From Natronorubrum texcoconense (GTDB lineage: Archaea > Halobacteriota > Halobacteria > Halobacteriales > Natrialbaceae), in the NCBI RefSeq assembly GCF_900100335.1, contig NZ_FNFE01000001.1:1-64000 (forward strand): a stretch of 64,000 bases of DNA. Direction: 5' to 3'. Position numbers and translations under genes: made by a program. Position 1 is the stretch's first letter. Each line of letters begins with the position of its first letter. This document shows positions 2,641 through 14,961 of the stretch, piece by piece. Below the pieces are notes generated by a model, which ran no database searches, was not told the origin of the DNA, and was given only the letters and a program-made list of their open reading frames with translations.

Positions 2641-2711
2641 GCGTCGCGACCGCGGCACACGTCGGCCGCGACGTACCGGGATTGATTACGTCCCCGTTCC
2701 ACGTCCCACAC

Positions 2712-3617
2712 ATGCAAACCCACATCGTCCCGGTCGGCTTCGACTACGACCGGTTGATCGCGCCGCTGGTGCGCGATCAGATCGACGTCGACAGCGTCAT
2801 CCTCCTCGAGGGTGCCGTCGGGAGCGAGGCCAACGTCGAGTACTCCCGGCACCTCTCGGAGAAACTCGAGACCGACTTCCGGAACCTGCTCGGGGCGAGC
2901 ACGGAGCGATTCGTCCTCGAGGACGTCTACGACTACGACGCGGCCTTCGAGCAGGCCTACGAACTCATCACGGGCGAGCTCGACGCCGGGAACGAGGTCT
3001 GGGTGAACGTTGCCGCGATGCCCCGAACCGTGAGCTTCGCGTTCGCCAACGCCGCCCACTCGCTGATGGTCGAACGCCAGGAGGACCGCGAGGGGATCCA
3101 CACCTACTACACGGCTCCAGAGAAGTACCTCGAGACGGAACTCGCCGAAGAGCTTCGCGAGCAGATCGCCATTCTCGAGGATCTGGGGGCGCAGGAAGCG
3201 GCTGTCGACGGCGATCGGATCGACGATCGGTTGGAGAGCGCCCGCGACCTCCTCTCGGAGTTCGACGAGCGAGGAACGACCATCGGGGCCAAGGAGATCG
3301 ACGGTCGTCACATCGTCGAGCTACCGGTCGCCTCCTTCTCGAACGTCAAGCCCTTCGAGGAACTCATTCTCTACAAACTCGGCGAGGACGGCGAGTTCGA
3401 CTCGGTCTCCGAACTGGCGGAATCGCTCGCCCGCGAACTCAACGAGGAGTACACCGACAGCTTCCGCTCGAAGGTCATCTACAACGTCGACCGGCTGGGT
3501 CCCGGCGGCAAGGGCTACATCGAGCGCGAGGAGCACGGGAAATCCTACCGAACCAGGCTCTCCCGGATCGGCGAGCTGTGGGTGCGAGCGCACTCCGACA
3601 GCGGTTCGGAGTCGTAG
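2712..3617 (+). CDS. HFX_2341/DUF6293-family regulator with CARF-like N-domain and winged helix
   Basis: A 301-residue protein. The N-terminal 130 residues (MQTHIVPVGFDYDRL... NEVWVNVAAMPRTVSFA) look like the Rossmann-type HFX_2341 N-domain, which resembles CARF ligand-sensing folds. The C-terminal third (PFEELILYKLGEDGEFDSVS... YRTRLSRIGELW) reads as a winged helix of the type that pairs with it. Family members are annotated as haloarchaeal transcriptional regulators. The ATG at 2712 starts exactly at the conserved MQTHIVPVG; an in-frame ATG ten codons upstream adds non-conserved residues. No cas gene or CRISPR array is in the window, so any link to cyclic-oligonucleotide signalling is inference only. 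Confidence 0.75.
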   Translation: MQTHIVPVGFDYDRLIAPLVRDQIDVDSVILLEGAVGSEANVEYSRHLSEKLETDFRNLLGASTERFVLEDVYDYDAAFEQAYELITGELDAGNEVWVNVAAMPRTVSFAFANAAHSLMVERQEDREGIHTYYTAPEKYLETELAEELREQIAILEDLGAQEAAVDGDRIDDRLESARDLLSEFDERGTTIGAKEIDGRHIVELPVASFSNVKPFEELILYKLGEDGEFDSVSELAESLARELNEEYTDSFRSKVIYNVDRLGPGGKGYIEREEHGKSYRTRLSRIGELWVRAHSDSGSES

Positions 3618-3766: not shown

Positions 3767-4528
3767 ATGACAGCAATCGACATCAACTGCGACATGGGCG
3801 AGAGTTTCGGCAACTGGACGATGGGACGCGACGACGAGGTGATGCCGTACATCACCTCCGCGAACATCGCCGGCGGCTACCACGCGGGCGACCCCCACGT
3901 CATGCGCGAGACCGTCGAACTCGCGGCGGAACACGACGTGGGGATCGGCATCCACCCCGGTCTGCCAGATAAGATGGGATTCGGCCGGCGAACGATGGAC
4001 GCGACGCCCGAGGAGGTGCGCGATTACGTCGTCTACCAGTTAGGCGCCCTGCTGGCGTTCGCGAGACGCCACGGAGCGACGGTCCAGCACGTCAAACCCC
4101 ACGGCGCGATGTACTCGATGCTCTCCGAGAGCGCGGACCACTGTCGGGCCGTCATGGAGGGCATCCTCGAGGTCGATCCCGATCTCGTCTACCTGGCGAC
4201 CGATATGAACATCTACGAAGTCGCCGAGGAGTACGACGAACTGGACGCCGTCTTCGAGGGCTACGTCGACCTCGACTACAACCCCGATCGTACGCTGATC
4301 GTCGAGAAATCGGTCGAGCCGAAGGATCCCGAACTGGTCGCGGATCGCGTCGTCTCCATCGCGACCCGCGGCGAAGTCGAGGCCGTCGACGGCACGATGA
4401 TCGACGTCCCCGCGTCGTCCATTTGTATTCACGGTGACGGACCGAATGCGGTCGAACTGCTCGAGTCGATCCACGAGCGACTCGAGGCGGAAGGAATCGA
4501 ACTCGCACGCCTCGACGAACTGGTCTGA
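3767..4528 (+). CDS. pxpA: 5-oxoprolinase subunit A (LamB/YcsF family)
   Basis: A 253-residue protein of normal length for the YcsF/LamB family. It carries the diagnostic motifs DINCDMGESFGNW (residues 4-16), SANIAGGYHAGDP (about 33-45, where most family members have C for the second G), HPGLPDKMGFGRR (about 64-76) and VKPHGAMY (about 108-115). PxpA acts with PxpB and PxpC in ATP-dependent opening of 5-oxoproline to glutamate. The ATG at 3767 is chosen because the conserved TAIDINCDMG follows at once. It converges on the biotin carboxylase gene (30 bases between stops) and is the plus-strand member of the Pxp/biotin cluster. Confidence 0.9.
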   Translation: MTAIDINCDMGESFGNWTMGRDDEVMPYITSANIAGGYHAGDPHVMRETVELAAEHDVGIGIHPGLPDKMGFGRRTMDATPEEVRDYVVYQLGALLAFARRHGATVQHVKPHGAMYSMLSESADHCRAVMEGILEVDPDLVYLATDMNIYEVAEEYDELDAVFEGYVDLDYNPDRTLIVEKSVEPKDPELVADRVVSIATRGEVEAVDGTMIDVPASSICIHGDGPNAVELLESIHERLEAEGIELARLDELV

Positions 4529-4557
4529 GACGGTTGGTGTAACGATACGCCGGCGGA

Positions 4558-5910
4558 TCAGGCCTCGTCCAGCCCCTCGAACTGCTCGTCGAGGTACTTC
4601 GTCGTGTGCTCGCTGTCGACGAACGCGTCGTCCTCGAGCACCGCGAGGTGGAACGGAATCGTCGTCGAGATGCCCTCGATGTCGGTCTCTTCGAGGGCCC
4701 GTTTACTCCGTTCGAGCACCTCCGTTCGATCCTGGGCGGTCACGATGAACTTCCCGACGAGCGAATCGTAGAACGGACTGATCCGATCGTCCTGATTGAC
4801 GCCGTCGTCGACGCGGACGCCCATTCCCGTTGGGGGTCGGTACGTCTCGAGGGTGCCTGGCGTCGGCGAAAAGTCGTTGTACGGGTCCTCGGCGTTGATT
4901 CGGAACTCCATCGCCGCTCCGCGGGTCTCCACCTCGTGCTGTTCGAACGAGAGTTCCTCGCCCGCGGCGACGCGGAACTGTTCTTTGACGATGTCGATTC
5001 CCGTCACCGCCTCGGTGACCGTATGTTCGACCTGAATCCGGGCGTTGACCTCGAGGAAGTAGAACTCGCCGTCCTCGTAGAGGAACTCGACCGTCCCGGC
5101 GTTACTGTAGCCGGCTTCGGCGACGCCGGATCGGGCGGACTCACAGAGCTCTTCTCGCGTCTCCTCGTCGAGCACCGGCGAGGGCGTCTCCTCGATGAGC
5201 TTCTGCTGGCGGCGTTGCACCGAGCAGTCCCGTTCGTAGAGGTGGCGGACGTTCCCGTGCTCGTCGCCGATGACCTGCACCTCGATGTGGCGCGGGTTCT
5301 CGAGGAAGCGCTCGACGTAGACCGCGTCGTTGTCGAAGTAGGCTTCTCCCTCGCGTTTCGCATTTTTGAAGGCTTCCTCGGCCTCCTCGGGAGTATCGAC
5401 AACTTTCAACCCGCGGCCGCCACCGCCGCCGTCGGCCTTGATGGCGACCGGGTAGCCGTGTTCGTCGCCGAAGGCTTTCACCCGTTCCGGGTCGTCGATC
5501 GGTTCGTCGGTTCCGGGAACGATCGGGACGCCGGCGTCGGCCATGATGGCGCGCGCTTTCGTCTTCTCGCCGAAGTCGGCCATCGCGTCCGCCGGCGGCC
5601 CGATCCAGATGAACTCCGAGTCCTCGACGCGGCGGGCGAACGACTCGCTCTCCGCGAGGAAGCCGTAGCCCGGGTGGATCGCGTCGGCGCCGGTCTCGCT
5701 CGCCGCCTCGAGCAGCGACTCCTGGTCGAGATAGCTCTTGCCGGCGACGGAGGAGCCGACGTGGACGGCCTCGTCCGCGCGCCGGACGTGTTTGGCCGTC
5801 TCGTCGGCGTCGCTGTAGACGGCGACGGTGTCGATTCCGAGTTCGGTCGCCGCTTGCATCACGCGGACCGCGATTTCGCCGCGGTTCGCAACGAGTACTT
5901 TGGTGATCAT
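4558..5910 (-). CDS. Biotin carboxylase subunit (ATP-grasp)
   Basis: A 450-residue stand-alone biotin carboxylase, the usual AccC length. It starts with the conserved [17 protein letters not shown]. The ATP-grasp glycine-rich loop is [13 protein letters not shown] (158-170), and the active-site strand is [10 protein letters not shown] (287-296) with E287, N289, R291 and E295 in place. It carboxylates biotin on a carrier protein using ATP and bicarbonate. It is the third gene of the pxpB-pxpC-BC minus-strand operon (17 bases after pxpC). Partnership with PxpB/PxpC-like proteins and a separate carrier suggests a urea-carboxylase-type rather than acetyl-CoA-carboxylase role, since no acyl-CoA carboxyltransferase gene is present. 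The substrate is unknown. Confidence 0.92.
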
Positions 5911-5927
5911 TTATTGACAAATCCGCA

Positions 5928-6893
5928 CTACAGCGACTCCTGAATGTCCGTAAGCAGTTCGTCTCGCTCGCGACGGATCTCGAGCGCCTCCTCGACGTCG
6001 ACCGCGTTGAAGTCGACGGTGCTGTGGGTTCGACACTGCGAGAGCGCGCCGCGGTCGGGGCTGACGATCGTTCCGACGGTGGTGTAGCCGCCGCCGGTAA
6101 CGGCGTCTCGCATCAGGATGATCGGCTGGCCGGCCATCTGGATGGAGCCGACGGGGTAGCCGAGGTCGACGACGTTGGTGACGTCCGTCCCGGCGCCGAA
6201 CGGTTGCTCGCGCTCCTCGAACATATCCCTGATATCGGGCCCCTCGAACCGGTAGCCGACCCGGTCGGCCTCGTCGGAGACCTTCCAGTCGGCGTCGAGG
6301 AAGCGCTGTCGTCCCTCGTCGGTGAGCCGGTAGTCACAGAGCCCCATCACGACGTTGATCTCGTTGGTCGAGTAGTCCGGACGGTCCGCCTCGTCGATCG
6401 AGTTCCCGATCACGTCGTCGACGTCCGCCGAGGGCTCGCCGATGGGCAGTTCGTCGCCCGCCTCGAGCGATCGGCCTTCGTGACCACCGATGCCGATCAG
6501 GGTGTACGTCGATCGACTCCCCATCACCGGCACGATGTCGACGCCGCCGGCGACGGCGAGGTACGTTCGCGCGCCTTCGGTCGCGAACTCGAGACTGAGC
6601 GTGTCGCCGGCGTCGGCCTGCACGGCCGTCCACATCGGGACCGGCTCGTCCTCGAGTGTGGGCTCCATCTCCGCCCCCGTGACGGCGAAGACGGCGTCGT
6701 CCTCGAACTCGACGTCCGCGCCCATGTAGGTCATCTCGAGGGTCGCGTCGGATTCGTCGTTGCCGACGAGCCAGTTGCCCACTTTGTGTGCGAACTGGTC
6801 CATCGCGCCGGAGGGCGGCATGCCGATGTGATAGTGGCCGTGGCGGCCGGTGTCCTGGACCGTCGTGACGAGTCCGCCGTCGAGAATCCGCAT
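5928..6893 (-). CDS. pxpC: PxpC/AHS2-type carboxyltransferase subunit
   Basis: A 321-residue protein of the KipA/PxpC/allophanate-hydrolase-subunit-2 family. The start reads GGLVTTVQDTGRHGHYHIG, and GMPPSGAMDQ follows near residues 24-33; VTGAEMEPTL, YLAVAGGVDIVPVMGS and DRGALSQC also fit. PxpC of classical 5-oxoprolinase usually has a different residue pattern before xGAMD, whereas the PPSGxMD form is what I recall from the AHS2 part of urea carboxylase. The ATG overlaps the pxpB stop by one base (TAATG), so the two are translationally coupled. It likely forms the acyl-transfer half of a heteromer with PxpB. The label pxpC is by family, not proven function. Confidence 0.85.
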   Translation of the reverse strand: MRILDGGLVTTVQDTGRHGHYHIGMPPSGAMDQFAHKVGNWLVGNDESDATLEMTYMGADVEFEDDAVFAVTGAEMEPTLEDEPVPMWTAVQADAGDTLSLEFATEGARTYLAVAGGVDIVPVMGSRSTYTLIGIGGHEGRSLEAGDELPIGEPSADVDDVIGNSIDEADRPDYSTNEINVVMGLCDYRLTDEGRQRFLDADWKVSDEADRVGYRFEGPDIRDMFEEREQPFGAGTDVTNVVDLGYPVGSIQMAGQPIILMRDAVTGGGYTTVGTIVSPDRGALSQCRTHSTVDFNAVDVEEALEIRRERDELLTDIQESL

Positions 6894-7795
6894 TACTCGA
6901 GCACCTCCAGGAGCCGCTCGTTGTAGCCGTCCGGGTCCTCGAAGAACGCCTGGGGCTCGAAGTCGACTCGATCGTAGTTGTACTCGTAGCTGCCGTCCTC
7001 CACCTCCTCGCGGATCGCGTCGTACTCCTCGCGGTCGATCTGCCGGAAGTTGAGGATGTCGCCCGGGTTGGGGAGCACCATCGACTCTTCGAACGCCGAC
7101 AGCTCCTGGTCGACGTCGAGCACTTCGACGGGCGTTCGACCGTAGAGCTGGTAGCCGCCGGCCCCGGGGACGGGGTAGATAGCCGTAAATGCGCCGCCGA
7201 AGCCGATCGCTCGACTCGGCGTCGCGGTTCGGGGCTGTTCGTACTTCGGCACCTCGATCTGCTCGTCGCGGGGGACCATCTGGAAACAGAAGGGCAGTCC
7301 GGGGACGAAGCCGATCATCGTCACCATGTGCGGCGCGCCCGAGTGGTGGTCGACGAACGCCTCGACGGAGTCGAAGCCGTTGAGTTCCGCGGAGTACTCG
7401 AGGTCCGTTGCATCCGGATCCTGGTGGCGCTCCCGGAAGTCCATCAGCGTGTCGTGGGTCCACGGATCGTCGTAGAAGACCGGTATGTCGAACACGCGGG
7501 CCTCCCACTGGTAGTCGGAGACGTCGATCTCGTCCTCGAGCGATTTCAGCTCCTCGATCAGTTCGTCGGGGTGCAACACGGCCGGATCGAACTGGATCAG
7601 ATAGGAGGCGTTCGACGGTGCGACTTCGACGAGTCCCTCGAGACTGTTCTGGCGGATCTCCTGCGTGATCGCCTGCGCCTTGAAGTTCGCGTCGAAGCTC
7701 ATCGCCTCGTCGAGTTCGACGAACACCCAGTCGTCCCCGCCGTACTCGTACCGCGGCGACGGAAGCTCTTGCCTCGTTATCGTTTGCTCGCTCAT
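6893..7795 (-). CDS. pxpB: PxpB/AHS1-type carboxyltransferase subunit
   Basis: A 300-residue KipI/PxpB/AHS1-family protein. Typical segments are VTMIGFVPGLPFCF, YEQPRTATPSRAIGFGG, YPVPGAGGYQLYGRTPVEV and LPNPGDILNFRQI. It is longer than most bacterial PxpB (about 220-240 residues) because of an extra acidic C-terminal tail of about 55 residues. The ATG at 7795 (MSEQTITRQ) is chosen; an in-frame GTG at 7822 adds nine unlikely residues. It is the first gene of the operon and faces the biotin-carrier gene across a 186-base divergent promoter region containing a palindrome. Confidence 0.85.
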   Translation of the reverse strand: MSEQTITRQELPSPRYEYGGDDWVFVELDEAMSFDANFKAQAITQEIRQNSLEGLVEVAPSNASYLIQFDPAVLHPDELIEELKSLEDEIDVSDYQWEARVFDIPVFYDDPWTHDTLMDFRERHQDPDATDLEYSAELNGFDSVEAFVDHHSGAPHMVTMIGFVPGLPFCFQMVPRDEQIEVPKYEQPRTATPSRAIGFGGAFTAIYPVPGAGGYQLYGRTPVEVLDVDQELSAFEESMVLPNPGDILNFRQIDREEYDAIREEVEDGSYEYNYDRVDFEPQAFFEDPDGYNERLLEVLE

Positions 7796-7919
7796 CCTAT
7801 TTCCCAAGAGAACGGTTACCACTGTATAGATGCCGACTAGAGTCGGACGAGAAACGTACTAAAACAATTACACGAGTTCGTAAACTATGGTGACTGATGT
7901 GTTTACAATGATGTTCGGG

Positions 7920-7945
7920 GAGGTATAGGTTTGTCAAAACCTATA
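7920..7945. promoter_or_regulatory. Palindromic operator/promoter between pxpB and the biotin carrier gene
   Basis: TATAGGTTT (7924-7932) and AAACCTATA (7937-7945) form a perfect 9-base inverted repeat around GTCA. The site lies 36 bases before the carrier ATG and about 130 bases before the pxpB ATG. Read on either strand it also gives an AAACCTATA element that could act as BRE plus TATA box. The left flank GAGGTATAGGTTTGT is nearly repeated upstream of the molybdenum-hydroxylase operon at 12146. Confidence 0.55.
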
Positions 7946-7981
7946 TGCTCGGAGACCCTATCGAATAGTAAGATTTCATAA

Positions 7982-8227
7982 ATGACGACAGAACACATCC
8001 AGTCACCGATGCCCGGCGTCTTCTACACGCGTCCCGATCCGGACGACCCGACGTTCGTCGACGAAGGCGACGAGGTTTCGGAGGGGGACGTCGTCGGGCT
8101 GGTCGGCGTCATGAAGAACTTCCACGACATCACCGCGCCGGCGGACGGCACGGTCACCGAGTTCGTCGCGGAGAACGAACAGGAAGTCGACGCCGGCGAC
8201 GAGCTGCTGGTTCTCGAGACCAACTGA
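7982..8227 (+). CDS. Stand-alone biotin/lipoyl-attachment carrier protein
   Basis: An 81-residue single biotinyl domain: SPMPGVFYTRP, then GDVVGLVGVMKNFHDITAP and the closing half EVDAGDELLVLE. The modified lysine should be K45 in VMKNF; the usual AMKM context is altered but the MK pair is kept. It is probably biotinylated by a BirA encoded elsewhere and moves CO2 from the biotin carboxylase to the PxpB/PxpC half. It has its own promoter, divergent from pxpB, with the palindrome at 7924-7945 in front. A lipoyl role is less likely because of the MK context and the neighbours. Confidence 0.88.
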   Translation: MTTEHIQSPMPGVFYTRPDPDDPTFVDEGDEVSEGDVVGLVGVMKNFHDITAPADGTVTEFVAENEQEVDAGDELLVLETN

Positions 8228-8324: not shown

Positions 8325-9194
8325 TCACTGACCAACGTCTAGCACGTCGTACAGCGCGCGCTCGGTATCGATCGTCAGCAGGTGCTCGCGATACTCGGCG
8401 CTGGCCTGTACGTCCGAGACGAACGCGTCGGCGTCCAGCGCGGTGCCCGCCTCGGCCGCCGCCGCGGTGATCGTCTCCTCGCTCACCGCACTCCCCTCGA
8501 GTTCGTCCTCCACACCCGACAGTCTCGCAGGCGTCGTCGTCGCACCGGTGACGGCGACTCGAGCCGCCTCGATCGTCTCGTCGTCAGTACGCAGCCAGAC
8601 GCCGACGCCGACCATCGCGTAGCCCGAGAGCGGGTCTCGGCGCTTGCGGTAGCCGCTCACGGCGTCGTCGTCGGTCGGAATTCGAACCGCAGTGACGATC
8701 TCGTCGTCGGCGACCGCCGTCTCGAACGGCCCCTCGAAAAGCTCGGCGGCGTCGATCGTTCGCTCGCCGTCCGAGCCGCGAACCTCGAGCGAGCCCTCGA
8801 GCGCGAGGAGGGCGGCCGGCGGATCCGAGCGCGGATCGCCGTGGGCGAGATTGCCGCCGATCGTGCCGCCGTTTCGGACCGGCGGATCGCCCAACTCGGA
8901 GGCGGCGTCGGCGAGCGCGGCCGCGTGTTCGCGGACGATTTCCGAGTCGGCGATCTCGGCGTGGGTGGCGAGTGCGCCGACCGAAATGCTTCCGCCGTCC
9001 GACGATTCGATCGCGTCGAGCCCGTTCAACTGTCCGATATCGACGAGCGCCGGCGGCGACTCGTCCCCGGTCTTCATCCGCGGCAGCAATCCGTGCGCGC
9101 CGGCGACCAGTTCGGCGCCGTCGTGGTCGCCGAGCAGTTCGACCGCCTCCCCCACGCTGTCGGCGCGGTAGTAGTCGAAGTCGTTCGTGTACAT
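8325..9194 (-). CDS. Molybdenum hydroxylase, FAD-binding medium subunit (CoxM-like)
   Basis: A 289-residue FAD subunit of the xanthine-dehydrogenase/CO-dehydrogenase family. FAD contacts are seen as LVAGAHGLLPRMKTG (about 29-43) and RNGGTIGGNLAHGDPRSDPP (about 107-126). It passes electrons from the molybdenum centre through the 2Fe-2S subunit to FAD. Its ATG overlaps the stop of the large-subunit gene by one base (TGATG). Gene order on the minus strand is small-large-medium. The third gene ends 97 bases from the convergent biotin-carrier gene. Confidence 0.9.
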   Translation of the reverse strand: MYTNDFDYYRADSVGEAVELLGDHDGAELVAGAHGLLPRMKTGDESPPALVDIGQLNGLDAIESSDGGSISVGALATHAEIADSEIVREHAAALADAASELGDPPVRNGGTIGGNLAHGDPRSDPPAALLALEGSLEVRGSDGERTIDAAELFEGPFETAVADDEIVTAVRIPTDDDAVSGYRKRRDPLSGYAMVGVGVWLRTDDETIEAARVAVTGATTTPARLSGVEDELEGSAVSEETITAAAAEAGTALDADAFVSDVQASAEYREHLLTIDTERALYDVLDVGQ

Positions 9195-11581
9195 CAGTTG
9201 TCACCCCCGGTGGCCCGCCAGACCGACTCCGGCGTGATCGGCATGTCGAGGTGGTCGACGCCGAACGGCTCGAGCGCGTCCGCGACGGCCGAGACGATCG
9301 TCGGCGCCGCCGCGATGGTCGCCGACTCGCCGACGCCTTTCACCCCGATGGGGTTGTGCGGGCTCGGCGTCACCGTGTTGTCCGTCTCGAAGTCGGGCAA
9401 CTGCGTCGCGTGCGGGACGACGTACTCGTCCATCCGACGGGTTCGGAGGTGACCGTCGTCGTCGTACGCCGCCCCTTCGTAGAGCGCGGCGCCGATCCCC
9501 TGTGCGATCCCGCCGTGGACCTGCCCCTCGACGATCATCGGGTTGATGATCTCGCCGCAGTCGTCGACCGCGACGTAGCGTTCGATCTCGATCTCGCCCG
9601 TCTCCGGTTCGACCTCGACGACCGCGACGTGCGTACCGAAGGGGTAGGTGAAGTTCTCCGGGTCGTAGAAGTTCGTCTCCTCGAGCCCCGGATCCATCCC
9701 CTCCGGCAGGTCGTGGCCGAGGTAGGCCTCGTGGGCGATGGTCTGGATGTGCAGCGAGCGATCCGGCGCGCCGGCGACGTGAAACTCGCCGTCGTCGAAC
9801 TCGATGTCGTCGACGCTGGTCTCGAGTTGGTGTGCCGCGATCCGACGGGCCTTCTCCCGGACCTCGCGCGCGCCGCGGGCGATGGAGCCGCCGCCGACCG
9901 AGGCGCTGCGACTCCCGTAGGTGCCCATCCCCTGTGGAATTCGATCCGTGTCGCCCTCGACGACCGTCACGTCGTCGACGGAGACGCCCAGTTCTTCGGC
10001 CGCGACCTGGGCGTATGTCGTTCGGTGGCCCTGTCCCTGATCCGCCGTTCCCGCGAGGACGGTCACCGATCCCGTCGAGTCGAAGCGCACGATCGAACTC
10101 TCCCAGCCGCCGGCCTGCGCGCCGAGGTCGCCCGCGAGTCCCGAGGGCGAGAGCCCGGCCGATTCGATGAAGCTGCCGATCCCGATGCCGATGTATCGGC
10201 CCTCGTCTCGAAGCTCACGCTGGCGCTCGCGTAACTCCTCGTAGTCGACGTGCTCGAGCGCCAGATCCATCGCGCGCTCGTACTCGCCGCTGTCGTAGAC
10301 CAGCGCGGCCGCCGATTCGTAGGGAAACTCGTCCGGTGGGACGAGGTTTCGCCGACGCAGTTCGGCCGGGTCCATCTCGAGTTCCCGCGCGGCGACGTCG
10401 ACGAGCCGTTCGATCACGTAGATCCCTTCGGCTCGCCCCGCACCGCGGTAGGCGTCGACGGGCGTCGTGTTCGTGAACGCGCCGACGACGCGGCAGTGGA
10501 TGGCGGGGATCGTGTACTGGCCGGAGAGGACGGTCGCGTACAGATAGGATGGCGTCGCCGTTCCGAACTGCGAGAGCTGCGCGCCCAGTCCGGCGTGCGT
10601 TTCGACGCGAACGCCGCGAATCGTCCCGTCGTCGTCGAGCGCGATTTCGCCGGTCGTCACGTGATCGCGACCGTGGCAGTCGGTCAGGTAGCTCTCCGAG
10701 CGCGTCGCCTGCCACTTCACCGGCCGCCCGAGTTGCATCGAGCACCAGGCCGTCACGGCCTCGTCCGGGTAGTGGTAGATCTTGCTCCCGAAGCCGCCGC
10801 CGACCTCGGGGGCGATCACCTGAATCTTGTTCTCCGGGAGTCCGAGCGTCCCCGCCGAGAGCAGCATTCGATGCAGGTGGGGGTTCTGACTCGTCATCCA
10901 GAGACGGAGCTTCCCCGTCGCCTCCTCCCAGTCGGCGAGGGCCGCTCGCGGCTCCATCGCGTTCGGGATGAGACGCGGTTGTCGAAGGTCGACGCTCGCG
11001 ACGCGGTCGGCGTCGGCGAACGCCTCGTCGGTCGCGTCCGCGTCCCCGAGTTCGAAGTCGAACGCGACGTTGTCCTCGGCCTCGTCGTGGACCGGCGGAA
11101 CGTCGCGCTCGACGGCGTCGACCGGATCGGTGACGTGCTCGAGTTCCTCGTACTCGACGTGAATGTGCTCGAGGGCGTCGGAGGCCGCGTGTCGAGTCTC
11201 CGCGACGACGGCGGCGACGGGGGTCCCCTCGTGGCGAACTTTGTCCGTGGCGAGCATGCGGTACTGGGGCTGGACGAGCCCGGGGAGGTCCCACGCGGTC
11301 GGGATCGTGTTCGGAACGCCGCTTTCGACGACGTCCTCGCCGGTGAACACCGCGAGCACGCCCTCCATCGCTTCCGCGTCACTGGTGTCTATACTCTCGA
11401 TTCGCGCGTGAGCGTGGTCGGAGCGCCGAATCGCCAGGTGGGTCGTTCCGCGCAGGGAGATATCGTCGGTGTACTCCCCGGACCCGGTCAGCAGCGGAAC
11501 GTCCTCGCCGCGTTCGATCGCGGCGCCGAAGGCCCCGCTGCCATCACCGTCGGATGCTCCGCTCGCGTCCGCGTCGCTCAT
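9194..11581 (-). CDS. Molybdenum hydroxylase, molybdopterin-binding large subunit (CoxL-like, AYRGAGR type)
   Basis: A 795-residue molybdopterin-cytosine-dinucleotide-type large subunit. The active-site loop is AYRGAGR (377-383), not the AYxCSFR of true (form I) CO dehydrogenase, so CO oxidation is unlikely. The general-base glutamate is E752 in GVKGVGES. GQGHRTTYAQVAAEELGV and GGGFGSKIY are the usual cofactor-binding segments. The ATG overlaps the small-subunit stop (ATGA). The substrate is probably an N-heterocycle or aldehyde, but cannot be read from sequence. No XdhC/CoxD-F maturation genes are in the window. Confidence 0.9.
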   Translation of the reverse strand: MSDADASGASDGDGSGAFGAAIERGEDVPLLTGSGEYTDDISLRGTTHLAIRRSDHAHARIESIDTSDAEAMEGVLAVFTGEDVVESGVPNTIPTAWDLPGLVQPQYRMLATDKVRHEGTPVAAVVAETRHAASDALEHIHVEYEELEHVTDPVDAVERDVPPVHDEAEDNVAFDFELGDADATDEAFADADRVASVDLRQPRLIPNAMEPRAALADWEEATGKLRLWMTSQNPHLHRMLLSAGTLGLPENKIQVIAPEVGGGFGSKIYHYPDEAVTAWCSMQLGRPVKWQATRSESYLTDCHGRDHVTTGEIALDDDGTIRGVRVETHAGLGAQLSQFGTATPSYLYATVLSGQYTIPAIHCRVVGAFTNTTPVDAYRGAGRAEGIYVIERLVDVAARELEMDPAELRRRNLVPPDEFPYESAAALVYDSGEYERAMDLALEHVDYEELRERQRELRDEGRYIGIGIGSFIESAGLSPSGLAGDLGAQAGGWESSIVRFDSTGSVTVLAGTADQGQGHRTTYAQVAAEELGVSVDDVTVVEGDTDRIPQGMGTYGSRSASVGGGSIARGAREVREKARRIAAHQLETSVDDIEFDDGEFHVAGAPDRSLHIQTIAHEAYLGHDLPEGMDPGLEETNFYDPENFTYPFGTHVAVVEVEPETGEIEIERYVAVDDCGEIINPMIVEGQVHGGIAQGIGAALYEGAAYDDDGHLRTRRMDEYVVPHATQLPDFETDNTVTPSPHNPIGVKGVGESATIAAAPTIVSAVADALEPFGVDHLDMPITPESVWRATGGDN

Positions 11582-12057
11582 CGTTGCTCACCCAACTGGT
11601 CCGCCGTGGCTTCGATCGCGTCGACGATGTTGTGGTAGCCGGTGCATCGACAGAGGTTCCCTTCGATGGCGTCCCGGATCTCCTCGCGCGACGGATCCTC
11701 GTTCTCCCGCAGGAACGTGTCGGCGGACATGAGCATCCCAGGCGTGCAGTAGCCACACTGGAGCCCGTGATTCTCCTGAAACTGCTCCTGCAGGGTCGAC
11801 AGTTCGCCGTCGTCGGCGAGTCCCTCGACCGTCTCGATCTCCGCGCCGTCGGACTGGACGGCAAACCGCGTACAGGATTTGATCGTCTCGCCGTCGACTC
11901 TGACGGTACAGGCGCCGCATCGCCCGGTCTCACAGCCGACGTTCGCCCCGGTGTAGCCGAGTTCCTCTCGGAGCGCCGAGACGAGCAGCGTTCGTGGTTC
12001 GACCGTCAGTTCGTGGTGTGTGCCGTTGACTGTTACAGAAATATTGTGTTCTGACAT
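11578..12057 (-). CDS. Molybdenum hydroxylase, 2Fe-2S small subunit (CoxS-like)
   Basis: A 159-residue two-cluster ferredoxin subunit. The plant-type cluster ligands are in CETGRCGACTV plus a downstream SCTRF cysteine. The second cluster is CGYCTPGML...CRCTGYHNI. Length and motifs match CoxS/XdhA small subunits. It is the first gene of the small-large-medium operon. A 288-base gene-free stretch lies upstream and carries the motif shared with the pxp promoter. Confidence 0.93.
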   Translation of the reverse strand: MSEHNISVTVNGTHHELTVEPRTLLVSALREELGYTGANVGCETGRCGACTVRVDGETIKSCTRFAVQSDGAEIETVEGLADDGELSTLQEQFQENHGLQCGYCTPGMLMSADTFLRENEDPSREEIRDAIEGNLCRCTGYHNIVDAIEATADQLGEQR

Positions 12058-12345: not shown

Positions 12346-14961
12346 TTAGCGTGCTCGAGCCAGTACGCGCTCCCGGAGTACGAGCAGACACGGCAGGACG
12401 GTGAGGCAGGCGACGAACGCGAAGACGATACTCAGCCCCGTCACCAGCCCGAACCGCTGAAGCGGCGGTGCGAGCGCGAGCGCGAGGACCCCGAAGCCGG
12501 CCGCCGTCGTGGCCGCGCTGCCGAGGAGCGCGCCGCCGGTACCCGTAATCGTCGCGGCGAGGGTCTCCTCGAGCGACTCCCGCTCTTCTCGTTCCGCAAT
12601 AAACCGCTCGCCGACGTGGATGCTGTAGTCGACCCCGAGACCGATCGCGAGACTGGTGATGACGGCCGTCTCGCTGTTGAACGGCAGGTCGAGCAGCGCC
12701 ATCGCGCCGAGCAGCCACGCGAGGGCGGCGACCACGGGCGCGAGCGTGACCGCGCCCAGCGAGAGCGCACGGTGGCGAACCCAGTAGAGGACCGTCAGGA
12801 ACGTCAGGATGACCACGAGCGTGACCGCAAAGGCCTGGACGAGCGTCTCGAGGAGGGCGTCTTGGACGACGGCGGTCGTCACGGGGCCGCCAGCCGCGAC
12901 TGCGGTGACTGGCCCGTTGCTTTGGATCGCGGCCGCGAGGTCACGAGTGTCGTCGGCGACGGTCTGTGCGGCCGCGTCACCCTGGACGCTGACCAGCAGC
13001 CGGGACGTCTCGTAGCTCCCGTCGTCGGTCCGGTAGATTACCTCGGAGGCACGGTCCGGATCGACGTCGAACAACACGTCGTAAAAGCCGTCGACGTCCT
13101 CGTTTGGCAGGTCGTCGCCGGTCGTATCGCGCTCCTCGAGGGCGGCCGCGACGCTCTCGTTCTCGCTCGCGAGTTCGCGGATGACCGATGGCGGCCCCTC
13201 GATCGCTGCAGCGCCGCCCGGTCGAACGATGATCGTACTATCGTCGCCGACCCCGCTGATCGCGTCGTCCATCGCGACGAGCGCGTCGGGATCGGTCACG
13301 TCGCCACGTATCAGTATCTGTGTTTGACTTCCCTCGCCGCGTTCGGCGAAGTTCGCGCCGAGGTAGGCGGCGTCGTCGCTGATCGTGTACGTGTCCGGCG
13401 CCAGCGGCCCGGGGAGGGACTTCGCCCACTCGGGGGCGTCTTCGGGGAGGAAATCGGCCTGATTGAATTCCGTATCGATCGTCGTCGCGCCGTAGGCGCC
13501 GCCGGTCGCGAGCAAGAATCCGACCAGCACGACCGCAAGCGGCGCGCGGCGAGCGAGCGCCACGAATCGCGATAGGACGCGGTTGACGACGCTCGTGCCC
13601 GTTCCGAACGGCTGTTTCGCTCGATTTCGTCCGAACCGACCCTCGAGCACGTCGTCGACCTCGACCTTGAGCGCCGGGACGAGGACGGCGAAGGCGACGA
13701 ACGTCGCGAGAATGCCGCCGGCGCTCAGTACTGCGAAGTCCTGAATCGCCGGGAGCGGACTGACCACGTTCGAGAGGAAGCCGACGCCCGTCGAGACCGT
13801 CGCGGCTCCGAGCGCGAGGACGACGCCCGACAGTCCGAGCGTCATGCCGGCCCGCGTCCCGACGAGGCCGCCGTCCGACTCTCGTGGGTGTTCCGTTTCC
13901 GTCCCGTTTTCGCCGTTCTCCGCCGCCAACGCTTCCGTTTCCTCGAGTTCCCCCGCTCTGGCCTCCCGATACCGCATCACGACGTGGAGCGCGTAGTCGA
14001 TGCTCAGCCCGATCAGGAGGAAGGGGACGGCGATGAGCAGTTGACTCGAGGGGACCTCGAGCCAGCCCTGAATACCCGCGAGCCAGGCCATGACGACAGC
14101 GATGCCGAAGACCGCGATGAGTACGTCGACGACGTCCCGGTACGTGACCGCGAGGACGCCGAGGACGAGCACGAGCGCGACGGGCGTGATGATCGCGAAG
14201 CTGTCGCCGACGGCGCTCGCGGAGGCCGCGTCCGTAACTCCCTGGCCGAAGAGGAACGCGTCGTCGAAGCGCTCGTCGACGAGCGCGTCGATTTCGACCT
14301 GCGCGTCGTAGGTCGCCTGTGGCACCTCGTCAGGGCCGCTCTCGTCGACCTGGAAGATGAATGTGATCCGCGACTCGGCCTCGGTCTCGCCCGGCTCGTA
14401 GCTGGTTGGGAGGAACTCGTAGGCGTCCTCACCGCCCTGATCGCTGTCGGGATCGAGCACGTCCGCGAGCAACGCTTCGACCTCTTCGTCCGAGCGCGAC
14501 TCGAGGGCCTCGATCCCCTCCTCGAGCGTCGGCTGGCTCGTATCCGGCGGGCCGTTCGCCGCCGCGGCCCGATCCTCGAACACCGCGCCCGTCGCGACGA
14601 TGTTCTCGAGCCCGACGAACCCTTGGTCGTCGAGCGTCGCGTTCAGGTCGTCGTCTTCGCGTACCTCCTGCTGAAGGTATAGTCCCTCGAGCAGCGAGTC
14701 GCGAGTCAGCACGTCGCCGCCGTCGTCGCGGACGACGAGTTGTGCGATGACGCCGTCGTCGGTGCCGTAGGTTTCGTCGATCTCTGTCAACGCCTCGGTC
14801 TCTTCGGAGTCGGTCTCGAAGTCGCCGATTTCCCCGTCCTCGCTCTCACCGATCACGGCACCGGCCGCGACGACGGCGGTGAGCAACAGGACCAGCACGA
14901 CGACGAGGCGGCTGTGAGAGACGACGAGATCAGCATACCGCTGCCCCAATCCTCCGCTCAT
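12346..14961 (-). CDS. RND/MMPL-superfamily exporter
   Basis: An 871-residue two-half transporter. Each half has one N-terminal membrane helix (residues about 18-38 and again near 470-490), a large external domain, and a bundle of five helices. The helices around LLIAVPFLLIGLSIDYALHVVMRYREAR and SLAIGLGVDYSIHVGERF hold the G(x)SIDY/GVDYS signature of the MMPL/HpnN group. Such proteins move lipids, sterol-like compounds or other hydrophobic solutes outward using the ion gradient. The substrate is unknown. It is transcribed in the same direction as the upstream small genes' opposite strand and stands alone. Confidence 0.85.
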   Translation of the reverse strand: MSGGLGQRYADLVVSHSRLVVVLVLLLTAVVAAGAVIGESEDGEIGDFETDSEETEALTEIDETYGTDDGVIAQLVVRDDGGDVLTRDSLLEGLYLQQEVREDDDLNATLDDQGFVGLENIVATGAVFEDRAAAANGPPDTSQPTLEEGIEALESRSDEEVEALLADVLDPDSDQGGEDAYEFLPTSYEPGETEAESRITFIFQVDESGPDEVPQATYDAQVEIDALVDERFDDAFLFGQGVTDAASASAVGDSFAIITPVALVLVLGVLAVTYRDVVDVLIAVFGIAVVMAWLAGIQGWLEVPSSQLLIAVPFLLIGLSIDYALHVVMRYREARAGELEETEALAAENGENGTETEHPRESDGGLVGTRAGMTLGLSGVVLALGAATVSTGVGFLSNVVSPLPAIQDFAVLSAGGILATFVAFAVLVPALKVEVDDVLEGRFGRNRAKQPFGTGTSVVNRVLSRFVALARRAPLAVVLVGFLLATGGAYGATTIDTEFNQADFLPEDAPEWAKSLPGPLAPDTYTISDDAAYLGANFAERGEGSQTQILIRGDVTDPDALVAMDDAISGVGDDSTIIVRPGGAAAIEGPPSVIRELASENESVAAALEERDTTGDDLPNEDVDGFYDVLFDVDPDRASEVIYRTDDGSYETSRLLVSVQGDAAAQTVADDTRDLAAAIQSNGPVTAVAAGGPVTTAVVQDALLETLVQAFAVTLVVILTFLTVLYWVRHRALSLGAVTLAPVVAALAWLLGAMALLDLPFNSETAVITSLAIGLGVDYSIHVGERFIAEREERESLEETLAATITGTGGALLGSAATTAAGFGVLALALAPPLQRFGLVTGLSIVFAFVACLTVLPCLLVLRERVLARAR

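Follow-up and report, generated by a model that had tools for sequence, protein, structure and literature searches.

A haloarchaeal gene set for a candidate biotin-dependent lactamase with a split, urea-carboxylase-like carboxyltransferase

Gene content of the locus

The window analysed here, a stretch of 64,000 nucleotides from Natronorubrum texcoconense, contains between positions 3767 and 8227 five genes, together called the module below. They encode a PxpA, a biotin carboxylase (BC), the AHS1 and AHS2 halves of a carboxyltransferase (CT), and a biotin carrier. A reading of the letters without database searches (the sequence-only reading) had placed these genes side by side, and all five are backed by Pfam matches far beyond chance (LamB_YcsF, 2e-87; Biotin_carb_C, 5e-37; CT_A_B, 8e-86; CT_C_D, 1e-41; Biotin_lipoyl, 2e-16). 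The genes and their flanks are:

2682..3617, plus strand: HFX_2341-family transcriptional regulator, upstream of pxpA (NF051475, 576 bits; cut-off 500)
3767..4528, plus strand: PxpA / LamB_YcsF family protein, 253 aa (PF03746, 2.1e-87), the proposed ring-opening hydrolase
4558..5910, minus strand: stand-alone BC, 450 aa (PF00289, PF02786, PF02785)
5928..6893, minus strand: AHS2 / PxpC-like CT half, CT subdomains A+B, 321 aa (PF02626, 7.7e-86)
6893..7822, minus strand: AHS1 / PxpB-like CT half, CT subdomains C+D, 309 aa (PF02682, 9.9e-42)
7982..8227, plus strand: single-domain biotin carrier, 81 aa (PF00364, 1.6e-16), with predicted biotinyl-lysine K45 in VMKN
8325..12057, minus strand: CoxM-CoxL-CoxS molybdenum hydroxylase genes (PF00941, PF02738/PF20256, PF00111/PF01799)

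The likelier start of AHS1 is the ATG at 7795, which gives 300 aa and agrees with the annotated Natrinema orthologue. The module is carried by more than one transcript: AHS1, AHS2 and BC are tightly packed on the minus strand, and pxpA and the carrier gene lie on the plus strand, one on either side of this block. The regulator, which also precedes pxpA in two close relatives, possibly controls the module. The molybdenum hydroxylase, whose CoxL carries the motif AYRGAGR and is found close to the module in 6 haloarchaeal loci, possibly supplies an upstream oxidation step.

The BC has the domains and active-site motifs of biotin-dependent carboxylases in general. The carrier scores 101.6 bits with NF005457 (cut-off 87) and has a predicted biotinyl-lysine motif, MK, at M44-K45; a gene of the biotin protein ligase family is present in the genome. 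In related carriers the residue after VMK is N, T or S, and the motif here is VMKN rather than AMKM, which counts against the reading favoured below. The PxpA, a member of the LamB_YcsF family, reaches 302 bits with the PxpA subfamily model NF003814 (cut-off 226).

Family placement and active site of AHS1 and AHS2

Trees built with urea carboxylase (UC) and PxpB/PxpC references group both halves with urea/guanidine carboxylase on starred branches (100/97 for AHS2, 98/96 for AHS1), and starred branches in both trees set canonical PxpB/PxpC apart. This bears out the earlier suggestion that the PxpC-like protein, with its GMPPSGAMDQ motif (AHS2 residues 24-33), is closer to the AHS2 part of UC. 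The module proteins form a sister group of UC (100/100) and are not nested inside it (98/94 and 95/94 for the module in the two trees). Among NCBIfam models, AHS1 scores higher with urea carboxylase (112 bits) than with PxpB (TIGR00370, 83.3 bits, under the cut-off of 145.55), and AHS2 reaches 210.7 bits with PxpC (NF045499), under the cut-off of 500. The single BC-CT-BCCP polypeptide described by TIGR02712 (cut-off 1303.85 bits) is here divided among four genes, which score 499.5 (BC), 219 (AHS2), 112 (AHS1) and 27 bits (carrier). Canonical PxpB lacks some 19 residues that AHS1 carries as an insert in mid-protein; AHS1 also has the extra C-terminal tail that the sequence-only reading had noticed.

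The AHS2 structure model (pLDDT 81) matches YbgK (5dud, Z 36.3) and urea amidolyase (5i8i, Z 35.6), and does not discriminate between the PxpC and UC types. The AlphaFold model of AHS1 is poor (pLDDT 59), which puts the pocket geometry out of reach and counts against the favoured reading. The model matches UC best (Z 12.9, 4.8 A, 221 aligned), with PxpB-type chains at Z 9.3-11.8 over shorter stretches, a hint in favour of UC.

By alignment, the catalytic lysine of UC, Kl-K1605, corresponds to AHS1 K193 (K184 in the 300-aa numbering). Mutation has shown that this general base is required in yeast urea amidolyase (PMC5770610). In the aligned rows the position is Lys in 21/21 module proteins and 4/4 UCs, and Arg in 7/7 canonical PxpB proteins. 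The substrate positions of UC are Kl-D1584 and Kl-1330, the latter being Asn for urea or Asp for guanidine (PMC11410670). UCs have Asp and Asp/Asn there, whereas the module has Phe (21/21) and Gln (22/22), as does 5-oxoprolinase (canonical PxpBC). The catalytic residue is thus UC-like and the substrate pocket PxpBC-like, so that the earlier term "urea-carboxylase-type" holds for the carboxyl-transfer part, in line with the trees and the lysine, and fails for the substrate; urea and guanidine are rejected as substrates on these residues. The lysine does not strictly mark biotin use, since the biotin-linked "type II" AHS proteins of Klebsiella, Aureimonas, Bartonella, Shinella and Lactiplantibacillus have Arg at the base position, a further point against the favoured reading.

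Co-inheritance and assembly of the module

AHS1 is found in 23 of 242 haloarchaea, and each of these 23 also has a PRK07051 carrier (present in 24 haloarchaea), PxpA (present in 27) and a module BC orthologue. The latter is missing from all 17 AHS1-negative haloarchaea tested, whose BCs are of the fused acyl-CoA-carboxylase type. Hypergeometric P values for the co-inheritance, uncorrected for relatedness, are about 1e-31 and 1e-28. In proteobacteria the operon pxpA-carrier-BC-AHS1-AHS2 has a fixed order in 76 of 80 loci, the remaining four being interrupted by contig ends. The five genes are one co-inherited unit, common to haloarchaea and many marine bacteria; chance clustering is ruled out by the 23/23 co-inheritance together with the operon order. 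Four haloarchaea have PxpA without AHS1/AHS2, which counts against the favoured reading.

The haloarchaeal and proteobacterial modules drew their BC (AU test, p 1.8e-6) and PxpA (p 1.6e-11) from different sources. An older five-gene cassette inherited whole is thereby ruled out for these two genes, and the set was put together or restocked two or more times around the AHS1/AHS2 clade. Recurrent bacterial neighbours include the biotin uptake transporter BioY (14 loci, directly behind the module in nine), caprolactamase-type HyuA (15 loci) and class III aminotransferase (16 loci), with omega-aminotransferase genes among the neighbours.

Proposed function and alternatives

The module probably encodes a split, biotin-dependent carboxyltransferase that works with a hydrolase on a lactam, either 5-oxoproline or another (probability about 0.6). 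The sequence-only reading had arrived at a biotin-dependent amide or lactam carboxylase/hydrolase, which gains support from the grouping with UC, the PxpB/PxpC scores below cut-off and the co-inheritance. The proposal builds on these, on the fixed operon and the general-base lysine, and on the pairing of BC and PxpA with the AHS1/AHS2 clade more than once. The BioY, HyuA and class III aminotransferase neighbours also point this way, as does PDB 9yx5, in which mycobacterial AHS1/AHS2 are bound to a biotin-dependent (long-chain) acyl-CoA carboxylase complex. A lactam as the substrate is suggested by PxpA homology and by the neighbouring genes.

In the predicted order of steps, BC would use ATP and bicarbonate to form carboxybiotin on K45 of the small carrier. 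AHS1 and AHS2 would jointly form a urea-carboxylase-type carboxyltransferase, in which the lysine equivalent to Kl-K1605 would take the proton from the amide nitrogen of a lactam or cyclic amide, the site to which the carboxyl group would pass. The N-carboxylated lactam would be an activated acyl carbamate, whose ring PxpA would hydrolyse, and the carbamate would then shed CO2 to leave the free amino acid. The net reaction would be lactam hydrolysis driven by ATP with CO2 recycled, the same logic as in urea carboxylase plus allophanate hydrolase.

An unlikely alternative is that another nitrogen compound is carboxylated in a biotin-dependent reaction, be it an open-chain amide, a ureide, or a cyclic imide such as hydantoin; PxpA would then act on the carboxylation product or on an intermediate further along. 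The pocket residues leave the substrate unfixed, amidases, molybdenum hydroxylases and SDRs lie near some loci, and PxpA without AHS1/AHS2 can adjoin an amidase; however, studied members of the PxpA family act in lactam hydrolysis, and genes for caprolactamase and omega-aminotransferase nearby suggest lactams and the corresponding amino acids. It is rather improbable that the locus encodes an ordinary ATP-dependent 5-oxoprolinase (PxpABC), with BC and carrier serving another enzyme. The PxpA subfamily match, the Phe/Gln pocket and the finding of no second AHS1 gene in this genome would suit it, but both halves fall outside canonical PxpB/PxpC in the trees and under the family cut-offs, every AHS1-positive haloarchaeon has BC and carrier, and 6 of 12 module-bearing bacteria own a separate canonical PxpABC.

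A split urea or guanidine carboxylase is very improbable. These enzymes are the closest relatives of AHS1/AHS2 and share their lysine, insert and tail, yet the pocket residues differ, PxpA is always there, no allophanate hydrolase was seen among recurrent neighbours, and two module genomes also have full-length UC-size proteins. That BC and carrier belong to an acetyl-CoA or propionyl-CoA carboxylase and cluster here incidentally is barely credible: the BC is annotated as an acetyl-CoA carboxylase subunit and the haloarchaeal module BCs are sister to the fused acyl-CoA-carboxylase type, but the genome encodes another BC, a fused protein of 621 aa that includes a carrier domain of its own, no CoA-type carboxyltransferase gene adjoins the module, and BC and the PRK07051-type carrier track AHS1 in 23/23 genomes.

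Comparison with known systems

With UC and guanidine carboxylase (TIGR02712; K. lactis urea amidolyase, 5i8i and 3va7) the module shares BC, biotin carrier, an AHS2+AHS1 carboxyltransferase with the catalytic lysine, the insert and tail of AHS1, and the motifs KY..PRT.T and GGYQ. It differs in its four separate polypeptides, a carrier of another family (PRK07051, VMK[NTS]), Phe/Gln in place of D1584 and N/D1330, and PxpA in place of allophanate hydrolase. PxpABC 5-oxoprolinase (E. coli YbgJK/YbgL, B. subtilis), which hydrolyses 5-oxoproline with ATP and independently of biotin, likewise has a PxpA member, separate AHS1 and AHS2, and the Phe/Gln pocket, whereas the module AHS1/AHS2 belong to a different clade, have Lys for Arg and the extra insert and tail, and always occur with BC and carrier.

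Biotin-linked PxpABC sets on plasmids of Klebsiella, Aureimonas, Bartonella, Shinella and Lactiplantibacillus also have AHS1, AHS2, BC, carrier and PxpA adjoining. Their AHS1/AHS2 are of the canonical type with Arg, AHS1-AHS2 and BC-BCCP are often fused, and a YcsI-type hydro-lyase and an NRAMP transporter usually accompany them; no tested function was found for these layouts. The same kinds of genes, likened here by description, occur together in SAR11/HIMB59, where "biotin-dependent carboxyltransferases and carboxylases" linked to FArhodopsin and accompanied by PxpA were tentatively connected by the authors to urea degradation (PMC10308929). In Mycobacterium smegmatis, MSMEG_0435-MSMEG_0436 (PDB 9yx5, 3mml) are a split AHS1/AHS2 bound to a biotin carboxylase complex, but there the BC-BCCP is the shared AccA3 subunit, and the likeness lies in the physical association.

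Implications

Tentatively, and at slightly less than even odds, the module may represent a separate enzyme class, a biotin-dependent lactamase that combines N-carboxylation from carboxybiotin with hydrolysis by PxpA, widespread in Proteobacteria and haloarchaea and put together or restocked on at least two occasions around a single AHS1/AHS2 clade. Extended further, this reading suggests that other biotin-linked PxpABC, too, may use carboxybiotin and not phosphorylation. A search of the accessible literature for a lactamase or 5-oxoprolinase that depends on biotin found nothing relevant. For substrate activation by PxpBC-type proteins the literature offers only an assumed phosphorylation (PMC13274462); if the proposal is true, the mechanism of this activation would become testable. 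In that case carboxylation, a chemistry known for urea and not assigned to rings, would be the activating step for lactam hydrolysis. Present annotations as acetyl-CoA carboxylase, allophanate hydrolase or 5-oxoprolinase would change for hundreds of genes, and marine bacteria and haloarchaea would have an added, CO2-recycling route of lactam use.

Gene content and genomic setting

All five genes that the sequence-only reading had grouped as one module are found in the window, where they adjoin a set of molybdenum hydroxylase genes:

3767-4528, + strand, pxpA
4558-5910, - strand, biotin carboxylase (BC)
5928-6893, - strand, AHS2/PxpC
6893-7822 (likelier start 7795), - strand, AHS1/PxpB
7982-8227, + strand, biotin carrier
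8325-12057, - strand, CoxM-CoxL-CoxS molybdenum hydroxylase genes (form II motif AYRGAGR)

AHS1 and AHS2 overlap by 1 base, and a gap of 17 bases separates AHS2 from BC; BC and pxpA are convergent, AHS1 and the carrier divergent. An HFX_2341-family regulator (2682-3617, +) lies directly 5' of pxpA; such a gene is also upstream of pxpA in two loci of close relatives (L038 and L044). Downstream of coxS is a large RND/MMPL-like membrane protein gene (12346-14961, -), kept beside the module in close relatives such as L038. The source genome, a haloarchaeon of the same family as Natrinema, contains a single further BC, 621 aa long and fused to a carrier domain of its own, together with a biotin protein ligase family gene and five HyuB-type genes, and no AHS1 gene other than the module copy was found in it.

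Co-inheritance and origin

Among 242 Halobacteria genomes, AHS1 exceeds the Pfam cut-off in 23, all of which are included in the 24 with carrier family NF005457 above its cut-off and in the 27 with PxpA (hypergeometric P ~1e-31 and ~1e-28, respectively, the relatedness of the genomes not being allowed for). When the window BC was queried against 40 of these genomes, the 23 best matches were those of the 23 AHS1-containing genomes, close to the module in most, and the 17 others gave matches only in open frames at least ~600 aa long that are of the fused acyl-CoA-carboxylase type. Content is constant in haloarchaea and gene order varies from genus to genus. Four haloarchaea (loci L189, L190, L191 and L192) carry same-clade PxpA without AHS1/AHS2, adjoining an amidase in two and near CoxL/CoxS in one; PxpA may have a different partner there.

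Two degenerate peptide patterns from module AHS1 retrieved 576 related loci from a genome collection, of which the best 80, mostly from Alphaproteobacteria, were retained. The order pxpA-carrier-BC-AHS1-AHS2, on a consistent strand, is found in 76, the remaining four ending at a contig edge, and the layout is identical on Thioclava and Rhizobium megaplasmids. The carriers share a VMK motif whose next residue is N, T or S. In six of 12 module-bearing bacterial genomes examined, canonical pxpA, pxpB and pxpC genes form a set apart from the module, and proteins of urea carboxylase length are encoded as well in two of these six, which makes it unlikely that the module simply duplicates either system.

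The module BCs of haloarchaea have haloarchaeal fused BCs of the acyl-CoA-carboxylase type as their sister group (100/99), not the proteobacterial module BCs, a placement already visible in a smaller tree. A single clade of haloarchaeal and proteobacterial sequences is rejected for BC (AU p 1.8e-6) and for PxpA (AU p 1.6e-11). The set was either assembled on two occasions or had its BC and PxpA replaced following transfer, and both readings imply that BC and PxpA are needed beside this AHS1/AHS2.

Phylogeny and active-site residues

Maximum-likelihood trees of AHS1 and AHS2, which the sequence-only reading had called for, were built with urea/guanidine carboxylases (UC), canonical PxpB/PxpC and two other biotin-linked kinds as references. 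All module sequences form a single clade (98/94 for AHS2, 95/94 for AHS1) beside UC (joint branch 100/97 and 98/96), so that both halves group apart from canonical PxpB/PxpC, which lie with the type II biotin-linked AHS sequences on the opposite side of both trees; owing to several long reference branches, the root and the position of single references are unsure. The extra C-terminal tail noticed earlier on PxpB is indeed present and is common to AHS1 and UC, as are a ~19-residue insert (DPWTHDTLMDFRERHQDP), KY..PRT.T and GGYQ, whereas in canonical PxpB each of these features is missing or differs.

Yeast urea amidolyase has K1605 as the putative general base of its carboxyltransferase, an activity crippled by the substitution K1605A (PMC5770610). 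In the alignment, the counterpart of K1605 in the window AHS1 is K193, and the position is Lys in the module (21/21) and UC (4/4) and Arg in canonical PxpB (7/7) and type II (5/5). Lys alone is no proof of biotin use, because type II sits beside BC genes yet has Arg. Residues D1584 and D/N1330 are diagnostic of urea and guanidine carboxylases (PMC11410670); the UC sequences here have Asp at the first position and Asp or Asn at the second. The module has Phe (21/21) and Gln (22/22), like canonical PxpB/PxpC (7/7 and 6/6). By its aligned residues, the enzyme thus combines a UC-type base with a PxpBC-type substrate pocket.

Further biotin-linked PxpABC layouts (loci L150, L153, L157, L158 and L160) have Arg at the UC Lys position of AHS1; most include a YcsI-type hydro-lyase and an NRAMP transporter, as well as AHS1-AHS2 and BC-BCCP fusions.

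Proposed function

Bacterial module loci contain a BioY biotin transporter gene (14 loci, immediately downstream of the operon in nine), class III (omega) aminotransferases (16), an ABC transporter of the sugar type that includes a TorT-like binding protein (30-36), a LysR regulator (54) and a HyuA-type gene matching a caprolactamase subunit model (15; one, when checked, reached 1257 bits where the cut-off is 1000, and seven more share 69-76% identity with it). Some haloarchaeal loci contain amidases or CoxLMS molybdenum hydroxylases. These neighbours point to a lactam or cyclic amide that is taken up and broken down to an amino acid, although they do not name it. CoxL relatives lie close to the module in six haloarchaeal loci.

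Searches with the window AHS1/AHS2 also led to a long-chain acyl-CoA carboxylase complex with M. smegmatis AHS1/AHS2 bound (PDB 9yx5); split AHS1/AHS2 can therefore associate with a biotin carboxylase complex, a hint that even AHS1/AHS2 of the canonical type may act together with biotin. PxpBC phosphorylation is described as assumed in a recent PxpABC paper (PMC13274462). Unstudied split UCT genes were remarked on in a 2011 family study (PMC3199775), and a 2023 paper mentions similar genes with PxpA in SAR11, with urea guessed as substrate (PMC10308929). A functional assignment of the module was not found in the literature searched, which is weak evidence given its thin coverage of subscription journals; as far as searched, the function has no prior assignment.

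The sequences show the parts, their linkage, their phylogeny and the active-site residues; from there we infer a substrate and a chemistry in which BC would carboxylate biotin on the carrier, AHS1-AHS2 would transfer the carboxyl group to a lactam nitrogen with Lys as base, and PxpA would hydrolyse the carboxylated lactam, with loss of CO2. A biotin-dependent carboxyltransferase acting together with PxpA is the favoured reading (probability about 0.8). Its substrate is probably a lactam; 5-oxoproline specifically seems rather unlikely. The module is real and coherent, and it belongs to the urea-carboxylase/PxpBC kind and not to a separate category.
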